Of a stretch of 45,984 nucleotides of DNA, positions 12,076 to 37,250 are shown piece after piece; the first letter of the stretch is position 1, and each line of letters opens with the position of its first letter. The notes below the pieces were generated by a model. It saw only the letters and a program-made list of their open reading frames with translations. It searched no databases and was not told the origin of the DNA. A program made the translations under genes and the position numbers. Source of the stretch: Verrucomicrobium sp. BvORR034 (GTDB lineage: Bacteria; Verrucomicrobiota; Verrucomicrobiia; Verrucomicrobiales; Verrucomicrobiaceae). The DNA lies in contig NZ_BATQ01000181.1 of assembly GCF_000739635.1 (NCBI RefSeq), positions 1 to 45,984 on the forward strand. The letters run 5' to 3'.

Positions 12076-12150
12076 TGGAGGCGAGGGCGGGAATTGAACC
12101 CGCGCATACCGGTTTTGCAGACCAGTGCATTACCACTTTGCTACCTCGCC
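12076..12150 (-). tRNA. tRNA-Cys (anticodon GCA)
   Basis: Read on the minus strand, a perfect 7-bp acceptor stem GGCGAGG/CCTCGCC is followed by discriminator U73 and an encoded CCA at 12076-12078. The anticodon arm is CTGGT-CTGCAAA-ACCGG, giving anticodon GCA, and the T arm carries GGTTCAATTCC. The gene points left, so its 3' end faces the Rep-like gene and the presumed island. Confidence 0.97.
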
Positions 12151-33990: not shown

Positions 33991-35655
33991 ATGCACCGCC
34001 GCTTCTTTGTTGCCGCACTGTTTGCCGCCAGCGCCTTACACCCAGGCCTGGCCCAGGAACCCACTGCAACCCCGGCCGCCGTCGCTGCGCCACCCGCAGA
34101 TGCCCCGGCCTATGACGTCGTGGTTTACAGCGGCGTTCCCTGCGGGGTCGCCGCCTCCGTGGCGGCTGCTCGCGAGGGAGCCAAAACCCTGCTCATCGAG
34201 CCCACCAAAGAAGTAGGCGGCCTCAATACCAGCGGGCTCAACACCGCCGAGACCGAGCACATGCTGAAGTGGACCTTCGGCGGCGTGGCGCAGGAGGCCT
34301 ACCAGCGCATGGGCTGGGAATACGGTCGCTGGAATCCGGTGTACTACTTTGAATCCAAGGTCGCTGCCAAGGTCTTCCACACCATGCTGGACGAAGCCAA
34401 AGTGCAGGTGAAGTACGGCGTGCGGGTGGACAAGGTGGAAAAGGAAGGCACCACCATCAAGAGCATCACCCTCAGCGATGGCTCCAAGATCACCGCAAAG
34501 ACTTTTGTGGACGCTGGCTACGAAGGCGACCTCATGGCCCGCAGCGGCGTGAGCTACACCTGGGGCCGTGAGTCGATCGAGGAATACGGCGAATCCCTCG
34601 CCGGCATCCGCCTGGACAAGACGCCGCGCAAAGCCGCGACAGTGGATGAAAAGGGCAACCTGCTCCCCGGCATCAGCGGCTGGGCCAAGGACGTGACCGA
34701 AGGCGCCGCCGACAAGAAGGTGATGAACTACAACTGGCGTCTCTGCCTCTCCAACGATCCGGAGCAGAGTGTTCCCTTCCCCCAGCCCAGGCAGTATGAC
34801 CGCGCCCGCTACAAGGTGCTGGAGAACTGGATCAAGGAGAAGACCGCCGCCAATGAGCCGGTGAAGCTCCTGGACATCATCGACCTCTATTCGCATGCCC
34901 CGGGCCGCAAGGACAAGAAAGAGGTCAACAACAAGCAGGCCGCCGTTATTTCCGTAGGCCACTTCGGCGGGCAGTTCGACTACCCCGATGGCGACTACGT
35001 CACACGTGACCGGATCGTCGCCGACCACACCGACTACACCGTGGGCATGTTCCACTTCCTGGCCACCGATGAAACGGTGCCCGAGACCCTCCGCACCGAG
35101 ACCAAACAATGGGGCCTTGCCAAGGACGAATTCACCAACAACGACCACTGGCCCTACCAGCCCTATGTCCGCGAAGCCCGTCGCATGAAGGGCCTCTATG
35201 TGGTGACGCAGAAGGACATCACCGAGGACCGCCGCAAGCCCGATAGCATCGCCATGGGCAGCCACTTCATCGACAGCCACCACGTGCAGCGCCTCGCCCT
35301 CTCCCCCACGGAGTTTGTGAACGAAGGCCGCATCTGGGAGGAGGGCCAGGTGTATCAGATCCCCTTCCGCGCCATCCAGCCCAAGGCTGAGGAATGCACC
35401 AACCTCCTCGTCCCCGGCGCCGCCAGCTTCTCCCATGTGGCCTTCTGCACCTACCGCCTGGAAAGCACCTGGATGAAAACCGGCCACGCCGCCGGAGTCG
35501 CCGCCGCCCGCGCCGCCCTCTGGAACAAGACAGTGCAAGACCTCATCATCGTGAACCTCCAGGAACGCCTCCGCGACCAAGGCCAGGTCATCGACTTCAT
35601 CGAAGGCCAGCCCGAGAAGTTCGTGAAGGAGCAGAAGAAGGCGGTGAAGAAATAA
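33991..35655 (+). CDS. Secreted FAD-dependent oxidoreductase
   Basis: The 554-residue protein has a signal peptide (MHRRFFVAALFAASALHPGL, AQ) and a Pro/Ala linker. It then has a FAD-binding start YDVVVYSGVPCGVAASVAAA. In this family (FAD_oxidored type) the usual GxGxxG is replaced by this SGxPxGVAA form. EVGGLNTSGLNTAE and FVDAGYEGDLMARSGVSYTWGRE are typical of verrucomicrobial and planctomycetal members. Near the C-terminus, SHVAFCTYRLESTWM then GHAAGVAAA completes the FAD site. The substrate is unknown, possibly a sugar derivative. It is followed by a strong stem-loop. Confidence 0.9.
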   Translation: MHRRFFVAALFAASALHPGLAQEPTATPAAVAAPPADAPAYDVVVYSGVPCGVAASVAAAREGAKTLLIEPTKEVGGLNTSGLNTAETEHMLKWTFGGVAQEAYQRMGWEYGRWNPVYYFESKVAAKVFHTMLDEAKVQVKYGVRVDKVEKEGTTIKSITLSDGSKITAKTFVDAGYEGDLMARSGVSYTWGRESIEEYGESLAGIRLDKTPRKAATVDEKGNLLPGISGWAKDVTEGAADKKVMNYNWRLCLSNDPEQSVPFPQPRQYDRARYKVLENWIKEKTAANEPVKLLDIIDLYSHAPGRKDKKEVNNKQAAVISVGHFGGQFDYPDGDYVTRDRIVADHTDYTVGMFHFLATDETVPETLRTETKQWGLAKDEFTNNDHWPYQPYVREARRMKGLYVVTQKDITEDRRKPDSIAMGSHFIDSHHVQRLALSPTEFVNEGRIWEEGQVYQIPFRAIQPKAEECTNLLVPGAASFSHVAFCTYRLESTWMKTGHAAGVAAARAALWNKTVQDLIIVNLQERLRDQGQVIDFIEGQPEKFVKEQKKAVKK

Positions 35656-35679: not shown

Positions 35680-35711
35680 GGCGAGCCCTGTCCCGCAAGA
35701 CAGGGCTCGCC
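35680..35711 (+). terminator. Strong stem-loop after the FAD oxidoreductase gene
   Basis: A 13-bp perfect stem GGCGAGCCCTGTC/GACAGGGCTCGCC with a 6-base loop, 24 bp after the stop. There is no T run, so it may block RNA decay or act as a terminator with help. Confidence 0.5.
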
Positions 35712-35724
35712 GGAGGGGCGCGAA

Positions 35725-36025
35725 GTGGGCTCCTGACGCCAAAGGCGTCAAACAAAACAGCCCTGGGTCAGGCGAGGTACGAGCCGCCACCCAGGGGGAT
35801 CGATGAAAAGCGCTGGAACTCCAAAGGAGTTCTACAAAACGTCCAAATCACCCCGAGACGAGCCGCACTACATGCAGTGTGCACCTCAGGGATCCGGATC
35901 CGGTCACAGTCTGTAGAACTCACTTCGGAGTTCTGACCCATTGCCCATGTACCCAGGGTGGCGGCTCGTGCCTCGCCTTACCCTGGGCTAGCATGTATGA
36001 CGCCTTTGGCGTCAGCGGGCTCACT
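35725..36025. repeat. Large foldback element 1
   Basis: An imperfect 300-bp inverted repeat. Paired blocks, from outside in, are GACGCCAAAGGCGTC (35735-35749) with GACGCCTTTGGCGTC (35999-36013); 35771-35796 with 35952-35977 (24 of 26 bases pair); and AACTCCAAAGGAGTTCTAC (35817) with GTAGAACTCACTTCGGAGTT (35913). Several blocks are also hairpins by themselves, giving a branched structure. No protein is supported here. Confidence 0.85.
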
Positions 36026-36137
36026 TGCGGCGTCGACGAAGGCTCGGTCCACACTGGCGGGCGGTGCTGCAAATCTCCCGACTCAAACCAACAGACCGCC
36101 AAGGAATCTCCCGCTGCGATGGACAACCTCCGCACTC

Positions 36138-36382
36138 GAACCCGGAGGGTTCACCATGAATAGCCATGCGGTGAAACGAGCGTAGCGAGTGCAACCCATG
36201 GAAAACGTCGCGCAGCAGCTCTACCACAGAGCGGTAGGCCATCACGGCAGTCACACCTCCCATGCAGGCGCTACCCGCTCAAGGCCTACCGCTCCTCGGT
36301 AACACGGCGTTGACGCTTTCCACGGGTTTGGCTAGCTAAACTCTCCTAACCCGTGGCTACGCAGGGTGAACCCTCCGGGTTC
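36138..36382. repeat. Large foldback element 2
   Basis: Outer arms GAACCCGGAGGGTTCACC (36138-36155) and its exact complement at 36365-36382 pair over 18 bp. Inner blocks are 36193-36209 with 36312-36328 (three transitions) and GAGCGGTAGGCC (36229-36240) with GGCCTACCGCTC (36283-36294). It lies 113 bp after foldback 1 and shares no obvious sequence with it. Confidence 0.82.
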
Positions 36383-36752
36383 GGAAACTCGCTCAAGTCA
36401 GATGATCTCCTGAACAGGAAGCGAACCTTAGTCGCGGTCAGTCCACGAAGTCAGCCTGTAGCAGTCGCAGGTTTTTCCGTGCCGAGGCCAGTTCCGCCTC
36501 GAACAATTCAGCATCAGCCGCATCAAGATGGGGCATCCGCTTCCAAGCTGCAAGCAGGTCAACTCCAGTGCACCGACGAGGAACTGGGCGCGTACTGATC
36601 GCCAAGCCTCCATCACACCCGACACGCCCCGAAATTGGCATCGCCGTTTCGGAGGCCGAATCCGTAACCAATGGACCAGACATATTGAGGAACAATCCTA
36701 CCACACGTTTCTTCTGTCTCCAGCACAACCCTCTCCCACACGCACGCCGCCC
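36383..36752. other. Gap before osmC, no recognised content
   Basis: About 370 bp. Short frames exist on both strands, but none gives a recognisable protein. I see no repeat family here. Confidence 0.4.
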
Positions 36753-37250
36753 ATGTCCGAACACAAAGCTTTCATCCTGTGGGAAAACACCAGTGCCCCG
36801 GGAGAGTTCACCAAAGGGCGCTATTCGCGGGAGCACACCTGGAAGTTCGACGGCGGCGTCAGCATCCCGGCCTCCCCCTCGCCCTCCGTGGTACGCCCCC
36901 CCTTCTCCAATCCCGACTGCGTGGACCCTGAGGAAGCCTTCGTCGCCGCCATCTCCAGCTGCCACATGCTGACCTACCTCTTTCTTGCGGGCCGAAAGGG
37001 ATTCCAAGTTGAGCGCTATCAAGACGAGGCCGTGGGTGTGATGATCCAAAACGATGCTGGTGTGCCCTGGGTAAGCCGGATCACCCTCAACGTCCGGGTC
37101 CAGTACGGTCCCAATGCCCCGTCGTCTGAGGAGGAAGACCACCTCCACCACGAAGCCCACGAGCAATGCTATATCGCCAACTCCGTGAAGACGGAGATCG
37201 TGGTGAGCAAATCCAGTGCGTCAGTGGGTGGTACGTCAATGCATCAGTAG
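36753..37250 (+). CDS. OsmC family peroxiredoxin-like protein with repeat-derived C-terminus
   Basis: The 165-residue protein reduces organic hydroperoxides in studied relatives. It begins MSEHKAFILWENTSAPGEF, with the family motif DPEEAFVAAISSCHMLTYL carrying the first redox Cys (C70) and CYIANSVKTEI carrying the second (C139). Family members usually end soon after this second motif. Here the last residues (SASVGGTSMHQ) are encoded by a piece of the family B tail (GTGCGTCAGTGGGTGGTACG, 37217), so the native end seems to have been replaced. ATG 36753 fits the family start. Confidence 0.88.
   Translation: MSEHKAFILWENTSAPGEFTKGRYSREHTWKFDGGVSIPASPSPSVVRPPFSNPDCVDPEEAFVAAISSCHMLTYLFLAGRKGFQVERYQDEAVGVMIQNDAGVPWVSRITLNVRVQYGPNAPSSEEEDHLHHEAHEQCYIANSVKTEIVVSKSSASVGGTSMHQ
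37217..37248 (-). repeat. Family B tail fragment inside the osmC 3' end
   Basis: TGCGTCAGTGGGTGGTACGT followed by CAATGCATCAG resembles the TGCGTCAGTGGGCAGTGCGT tail of family B at 18651-18670, here read as protein. Confidence 0.65.

Follow-up and report, generated by a model that had tools for sequence, protein, structure and literature searches.

A dispersed fold-back element of Verrucomicrobium sp. BvORR034 with three-hairpin arms, probably a gene-less derivative of a small Y1 transposon

What kind of sequence is the fold-back that lies between two genes of Verrucomicrobium sp. BvORR034, and which of its possible folds is maintained? The window, that is, the whole stretch of 45,984 nucleotides analysed here (contig NZ_BATQ01000181.1), contains it at 35734-36014. 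A preliminary description made from the sequence alone had placed a nested fold-back with blocks palindromic on their own at 35725-36025, and had suggested that it could form a long branched stem and be a MITE-like or structured RNA element. The nested arrangement was confirmed: two inverted arms of 64 nt (35733-35796 and 35952-36015) are 86% complementary with 155 nt between them, and four self-palindromes were located (35734-35750, 35815-35832, 35912-35933, and 35998-36014). The end points given there overshoot the element by about 10 bp at either end. The minimum folding energy of the element was -177.8 kcal/mol on the + strand against a shuffle mean of -105.9 (z -12.7) and -187.3 kcal/mol on the - strand against -112.1 (z -13.4), with 0 of 100 shuffles as low on either strand. 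The fold-back structure is real and far beyond chance.

The element is intergenic, since it has upstream a FAD-dependent oxidoreductase gene, which ends at 35655, and downstream an OsmC-like ORF (36528-37250), both with Pfam support. The search of the whole window against Rfam at the gathering threshold gave a tRNA (12079-12150) as its sole match and none over the element. Directly after the oxidoreductase gene there is an inverted repeat (35680-35711), perfect over 13 bp, with a loop of 6 nt and without T-run, which occurs with small changes in the sister species G002 and G003 as well.

Each arm is made of three hairpins in series: a short palindrome at the end (H1), a compound hairpin (H2) whose stem follows the pattern CCC(A/G/T)GGGT...ACCC(T/C/A)GGG enclosing an inner segment, and a REP-like hairpin (H3), GAACTC...GAGTTC with a GTAG foot. 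The features are given below; helices are numbered as in the local-hairpin model, and only the core is given a strand.

35734-36014, + strand: element core (family 1), two inverted three-hairpin arms and a 75-bp middle; orientation set by the Y1 gene on contig C69
35734-35750: H1 left, end palindrome TGACGCC-AAA-GGCGTCA (helix 1)
35761-35796: H2 left, compound hairpin CCCTGGGT...ACCCAGGG (helices 2-4)
35815-35836: H3 left, REP-like hairpin GGAACTCC-AAA-GGAGTTC with CTAC (GTAG on the other strand) (helix 5)
35912-35933: H3 right, TGTAG and hairpin GAACTC...GAGTTC (helix 6)
35951-35987: H2 right, compound hairpin CCCAGGGT...ACCCTGGG (helices 7-8)
35998-36014: H1 right, end palindrome TGACGCC-TTT-GGCGTCA (helix 9)
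36137-36383: fold-back of a second family (family 2), of similar plan and different sequence, a neighbour separate from the element; from own-genome matches and arm folds

The preliminary description had pointed to other loci as the place to look for the element and had counted the absence of homologues in related genomes, together with that of a transcript, as refuting its reading; copies at other loci and homologues in related genomes were both found. In its own 8.58-Mb genome (G000) the 301-bp query gave at least 75 match rows, merging to at least 41 places, a lower bound because 40 of 57 first-look candidates were scored. Fourteen of the 41 places are at least 261 bp long and three sit at the transposase locus described below. 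Family 1 matched 6 of the 38 genomes searched, its own included. Among the matches listed, full-length ones came only from G000 and the two sister species G002 and G003, all of one genus, and G004, G011, and G018 gave short partial ones; there was no match in G001, a small incomplete fourth member of the genus, nor in the plasmid collection. Of 54 strong hits, 51 copies were aligned (alignment A1) and the partial copies L014, L019, and L195 were dropped. Full copies are alignable over about 275-285 bp, and the window copy has a mean identity of 79% to the other 50 and of 98% to the same-place copy in G002. The middle between the two H3 hairpins measures 64-75 nt (median 68; 75 in the window). 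The H3 foot in the right arm is GTAG in 48 of the 51 copies, and in the left arm it reads CTAC in 36 and CAAC in 14. It was also possible to see in this alignment that the inner hairpin of the window copy's left arm is of the right-arm type, so that this copy is more symmetric than most of the family and its long stem across the centre is a less typical part. Greedy ORF calling around the copies placed 29 of the 51 over such ORFs (the others being 10 tandem, 9 convergent, and 3 divergent), and because of these overlaps the gene-orientation counts were not used. In three copies (L008, L011, and L018) the outer part of H2 in the left arm was replaced by a TCCCGCAGTCGCGGGA-type hairpin, a hairpin exchange within the element, and L018 had a similar change on the right side.

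Considering that the arms are mutually inverted, a long arm-to-arm stem is possible in addition to the local hairpins. The two models were compared over the 51 aligned copies with 500 column shuffles, which keep the shared ancestry of the copies. The local hairpins were paired in 98.0% of 2703 cells, and changes on both sides affected 6 pairs and 19 cells; the paired percentage, the double-change cells, and the covariation score were each reached by 0 of 500 shuffles and the other two measures by 1 of 500. Meanwhile, the long stem was paired in 93.7% against 93.5% in the shuffles, a value reached by 10 of 500, and its pairs changed on both sides were reached by 41, its further pair types by 282, its covariation score by 17, and its double-change cells by 1. 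Column 45 forms with column 74 a local pair that is GC in 42, AU in 6, and UA in 2 of the 51 copies, and the long-stem pair of column 74 with column 248 is unpaired in 45 of 51. The RNAalifold consensus was a mixture of local hairpins and long stem. The long stem also exceeded its slid controls, which follows from the arms being related to one another; despite this, it was rejected as the main maintained structure on the shuffle comparison. The local hairpins are maintained with compensatory changes and the long stem is hardly above its shuffles. The long branched stem is a stable fold on both strands, covariation across homologues favours the local hairpins instead, and the proposal of a structured RNA made in the preliminary description finds no support here or in Rfam at the gathering threshold. 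The upkeep of the local hairpins fits a Y1 transposase that recognises them in single-stranded DNA. According to the excerpts available of PMC6006769 and PMC8266576, Y1 enzymes of this superfamily bind such hairpins and choose their cut sites through a guide tetranucleotide located 5' of the foot.

A candidate enzyme was found inside the same arms. Of the 15 Y1_Tnp match rows in G000, one on contig C69 corresponds to a gene of 151 aa (P0001; locus L058, 2014-2466), flanked by family-1 arms at about 1853-1999 and 2482-2600 of the locus, with a further fragment at 2645-2709. The protein scores 90 bits with Pfam Y1_Tnp PF01797 (cut-off 23) and 67.9 bits with the IS200 NCBIfam model NF033573 (cut-off 55); with the REP-associated NCBIfam model REP_Tyr_transpos it reaches 30.3 bits, below the cut-off of 80. 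Among solved structures no PDB sequence matched at E 0.001 or better. In G002, a gene 76% identical to P0001 is framed by the same arms (L161: arms 2047-2179 and 2667-2793, gene 2204-2656). P0001 matches six loci of G000, the other five being 38-48% identical. The nearest protein in G003 is only 51% identical, beside 36 family-1 match rows; G003 may have lost the enzyme, or its family 1 may depend on a different one. Since the arms are common to the element and to the Y1 gene, in G000 and in G002, the element is best read as the non-autonomous derivative of that gene, and the window element equals the armed Y1 locus with a short middle replacing the gene. The preliminary description was partly borne out, its label MITE-like being right in outline: family 1 is dispersed, gene-less, and two-armed, and its arms also flank a transposase gene.

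The orthologous sites were then considered. At the window site G003 has a single 17-bp H1 hairpin and flank, which fits either a deletion between the end palindromes or an older solo state. The flanks of six further copies were sought in G002 and G003; five sites could be aligned and L007, where the right flank alone matched one place, was left out. In all five, the intact element is absent from at least one sister species. At L003 a family-2 element is found instead in G003, with the element present in G002; at L015 G003 has a shorter spacer and G002 the element; at L016 G002 has another repeat sequence and G003 the element; at L005 the place holds other sequence in G002, and in G003 a remnant of the left arm; and at L012 G002 has another repeat sequence. 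Neither the window site in G003 nor the five aligned sites gave a clean empty-site junction. No direct repeats or target-site duplication were seen at the copy borders, inspected by eye and with no clean empty site for comparison. Outside the core, conservation fades and is not sharp, with pyrimidines on the left and AGAGC on the right, and a longer form of the element with an extra outer palindrome may exist. The sites of this mobile-looking family vary between sister species. In many copies (for example L002, L010, L018, L186) a TTAACCTGACGCGCATGCGC-like motif is located about 30-60 bp outside the right H1, sometimes mirrored on the left; it is perhaps a repeat of its own or the outer end of the longer form. 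Another short repeat, the third, has a palindrome-like core, GGCGGTTTGTGCTTGCACAACCGCCG, and was noted in the left flank of L007, at L240, L244, and L246 of G002, and at many G002 places; it occupies orthologous G002 sites where G000 has family 1.

By comparison with the known systems, the element shares features with several of them. With REPINs or BIMEs and their TnpA-REP (RAYT) genes, or REPtrons (PMC3116915 and PMC8266576, as excerpted), it has in common an inverted hairpin pair with a GTAG foot, here H3 (GTGG- or GTTG-like feet also being accepted), dispersed gene-less copies, and one Y1 gene flanked by the same repeats. It differs in that the family-1 arms add H1 and H2, the element measures about 280 bp, and P0001 lies outside the RAYT family by its REP-associated score and above the IS200 cut-off, with the Y motif YIRNQAEHH, not of NP type. 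The TIRtrons, in the portion of PMC3733652 available, are Y1-type genes in long terminal inverted repeats, some partly self-complementary, and their families have moderately abundant dispersed copies, some of them dimers. Compared by description, not arm by arm, P0001 is likewise a Y1 gene between long inverted repeats belonging to a dispersed family; unlike it, the TIRYTs have an NP-type Y motif (subclass 2.1, or 2.2 and 2.5), subclass 2.1 probably being the TIRYTs in the excerpts of PMC6006769.

In the elements IS200/IS605 (subclass 1.1) the two ends are not known to be inverted copies of each other. The parent gene belongs to the same Pfam Y1 family, the window element being gene-less, and subterminal hairpins are also shared; however, the ends of those elements are small subterminal hairpins and their gene is multi-copy, as far as the excerpts of PMC6006769 describe them, and here the arms are inverted and multi-hairpin, the gene-less form is numerous, and G000 does not have many near-identical copies of the gene.

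MITEs of DDE transposons are gene-less, with terminal inverted repeats, many copies, and a target-site duplication. The element is similarly gene-less, dispersed, and bounded by inverted repeats, and it differs in the enzyme type; no target-site duplication was visible by eye. MITEs without a found parent are described in Thiomargarita in the excerpt of PMC4853749. The remaining comparison is TnpA-Y1 subclass 1.2, for which Table 1 of the 2018 survey (PMC6006769, seen in part) gives DH[IV]H, WQ, Y---Q--HH, and a median length of 148. P0001, with DHVH, WQ, YIRNQAEHH, and 151 aa, carries the motifs and length of this subclass, as predicted from its sequence against that table and not by a subclass HMM. 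In the same excerpts the subclass is mostly of Cyanobacteria and Bacteroidetes, has generally no typical terminal IS200 structures, and is marked 'no' for REP, whereas here there are inverted arms. In the open-licence PMC literature, as far as excerpted, we found neither arms or repeats described for subclass 1.2 nor a paper on the association of such arms with Y1 genes.

Other Y1 loci were compared. The further Y1 genes examined in the genus are flanked by two inverted blocks whose sequence is different, most clearly at L060, L062, L063, L200, and L201, and L202 has many repeats in several arrangements. As relatives, 61 Y1 loci were taken, drawn in part from more than 100 match rows; 56 were kept and 5 with too short flanks dropped, L094 and L147 being omitted as duplicates of L161 and L200. 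The motif Y---Q--HH is present in 52 of the 56. The flank score was the best local match between the upstream flank and the reverse complement of the downstream flank. It exceeded 17, the best of 280 mononucleotide shuffles, in 45 of 56 relatives, and in 37 it exceeded 34, the 99th percentile among 336 mismatched pairings of an upstream with a downstream flank. Some loci have related arms, which lets mismatched pairs score up to 78, and the 56 loci are not independent of one another. Control flanks 700-1000 nt away passed 17 in 1 of 51 (maximum 18.5) and the direct-orientation control in 16 of 56. Among the 45 positives, 37 are specifically inverted and in 8 the direct match equals or beats the inverted one, which weakens the case for arms in subclass 1.2; L110, one of the eight, seems to carry similar fold-backs, one on either side. 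The other 11 relatives had no inverted flank match above the shuffles, two of them (L116, L146) having strong direct matches. The taxa named among the positives, with many MAGs, are Verrucomicrobia, Planctomycetes, Pyrinomonadaceae, Balneolaceae, Saprospiraceae, Salinivirgaceae, Chlamydiae, and Lentisphaerae.

Over the 56 loci, the number of hairpins per 150 nt was 2.21 in the upstream flank and 1.95 in the downstream one; it was lower at a distance of 700-850 nt (0.71) and within the gene (0.48). At least three hairpins were counted upstream in 27 of 56 and downstream in 18, with 13 loci having them on both sides; the controls at 700-850 nt had as many in 1 of 108 and those within the gene in 1 of 112. 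When 14 chosen arms were folded, nine presented three hairpins in a row (L060, L063, L103, L105, L106, L109, L112, L115, and L121) and five departed from this plan (L097, L110, L120, L144, and L149). The hexamer AGCCCA occurs in 58 of 112 arms in this orientation and as its reverse complement in 11, the number expected from distant flanks being 7.3; these counts are descriptive, the hexamer having been chosen after 5- and 6-mers were screened. All five Y1-locus arms queried against their own genomes recur there: those of two other loci of the genus gave 41 and 35 match rows, a Pyrinomonadaceae MAG arm 18 (inverted pairs recurring with gaps of 8-22 bp), a Pirellulales MAG arm 67 (inverted pairs with gaps of about 80-110 bp), and a Salinivirgaceae MAG arm 5, 3 of them beyond its own locus.

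We consider it likely that the element derives from a small HUH/Y1 transposon, of which it would be a gene-less and non-autonomous form. The family, the arms, their association with the gene, the conservation of the hairpins, and the differences between sister species are direct observations. The parent would be the 151-aa IS200-like transposase gene with an inverted H1-H2-H3 arm on each side, and the derivative would have kept both arms and have 64-75 bp between them in place of the gene. The transposase would act in trans on the gene-less copies, on single-stranded DNA, binding H3 and/or H2 of both arms; GTAG 5' of H3, and perhaps TAG before H2, would be the guide tetranucleotide for the choice of cut sites. 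Its tyrosine would cut, and the armed segment would be moved or copied elsewhere without target duplication. The end palindromes would favour later deletion to a single hairpin, as G003 may show. Against this reading stand the lack of a clean empty site, the outer ends that are not sharp, the copies of G003 without a close relative of P0001, the survey's Y1 group reported with no REP and generally without IS200-type ends, the 11 relatives whose inverted flank match is not above the shuffles, the eight positives not specifically inverted, and the long stem above its slid controls.

The intergenic position, with flanking genes on the same strand, would also suit a domesticated sequence of REP/BIME type, spread formerly by the transposase and now kept as a terminator, mRNA stabiliser, or protein-binding site, roles that are described for REPs between genes in the excerpts of PMC6006769; the G003 copies point the same way. 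The five aligned sites, each without the intact element in at least one sister, argue that it is dispensable there, and the conservation of the hairpins is equally explained by transposase recognition, which leaves this alternative unlikely. We give very little credit to a structured regulatory RNA with one long branched stem: it agrees with the very stable fold and with a long stem largely paired above the slid controls, yet that stem barely differs from its shuffles, the compensatory changes belong to the local hairpins, no Rfam family matches at the gathering threshold, both strands fold equally well, and the element is dispersed and variable between species. Least probable of all is a classical DDE MITE with target-site duplication, between two copies of which the Y1 gene landed by chance. 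Its terminal inverted repeats, small size, copy number, and lack of a gene are those of the element, but the borders of the listed copies have no direct repeats by eye, and chance landing is no explanation for a gene-arms association that recurs in the sister genome and, with arms of other sequence, at many related Y1 genes.

The derivation from a Y1 transposon has an ordinary side, the element being a non-autonomous palindromic element, and one that is new as far as we searched: the three-hairpin arms and their link to a Y1 subclass reported without such ends. We lean, a little beyond even chances, to the wider proposal that subclass 1.2 comprises the enzymes of widespread HUH elements with inverted H1-H2-H3 arms (about half of the arms having AGCCCA at the H2 foot), that their dispersed gene-less arm copies are many of the intergenic palindromes of Verrucomicrobiota, Planctomycetota, Acidobacteriota, and Bacteroidota, and that the window element is one such derivative. 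If the arms were the substrate, an orphan subclass left by the survey without ends or substrate would gain a testable target. The intergenic palindromes of less studied phyla would gain an origin, and an IS-like protein with REP-like, inverted, and dispersed ends would be a possible intermediate between IS200 and REP systems.

The neighbouring family 2 starts 122 bp downstream of the family-1 element and gave at least 100 match rows in its own genome. Both its arms fold into hairpins on a plan similar to that of family 1, and no family-2 match was found beside the Y1 loci compared. In G002, the locus L186 has two similar family-1 copies (1502-1781 and 2445-2724) in the same orientation about 940 bp apart. 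Families 1 and 2 are also close together on contigs C185 (34718 and 35034) and C18 (19171 and 19622).
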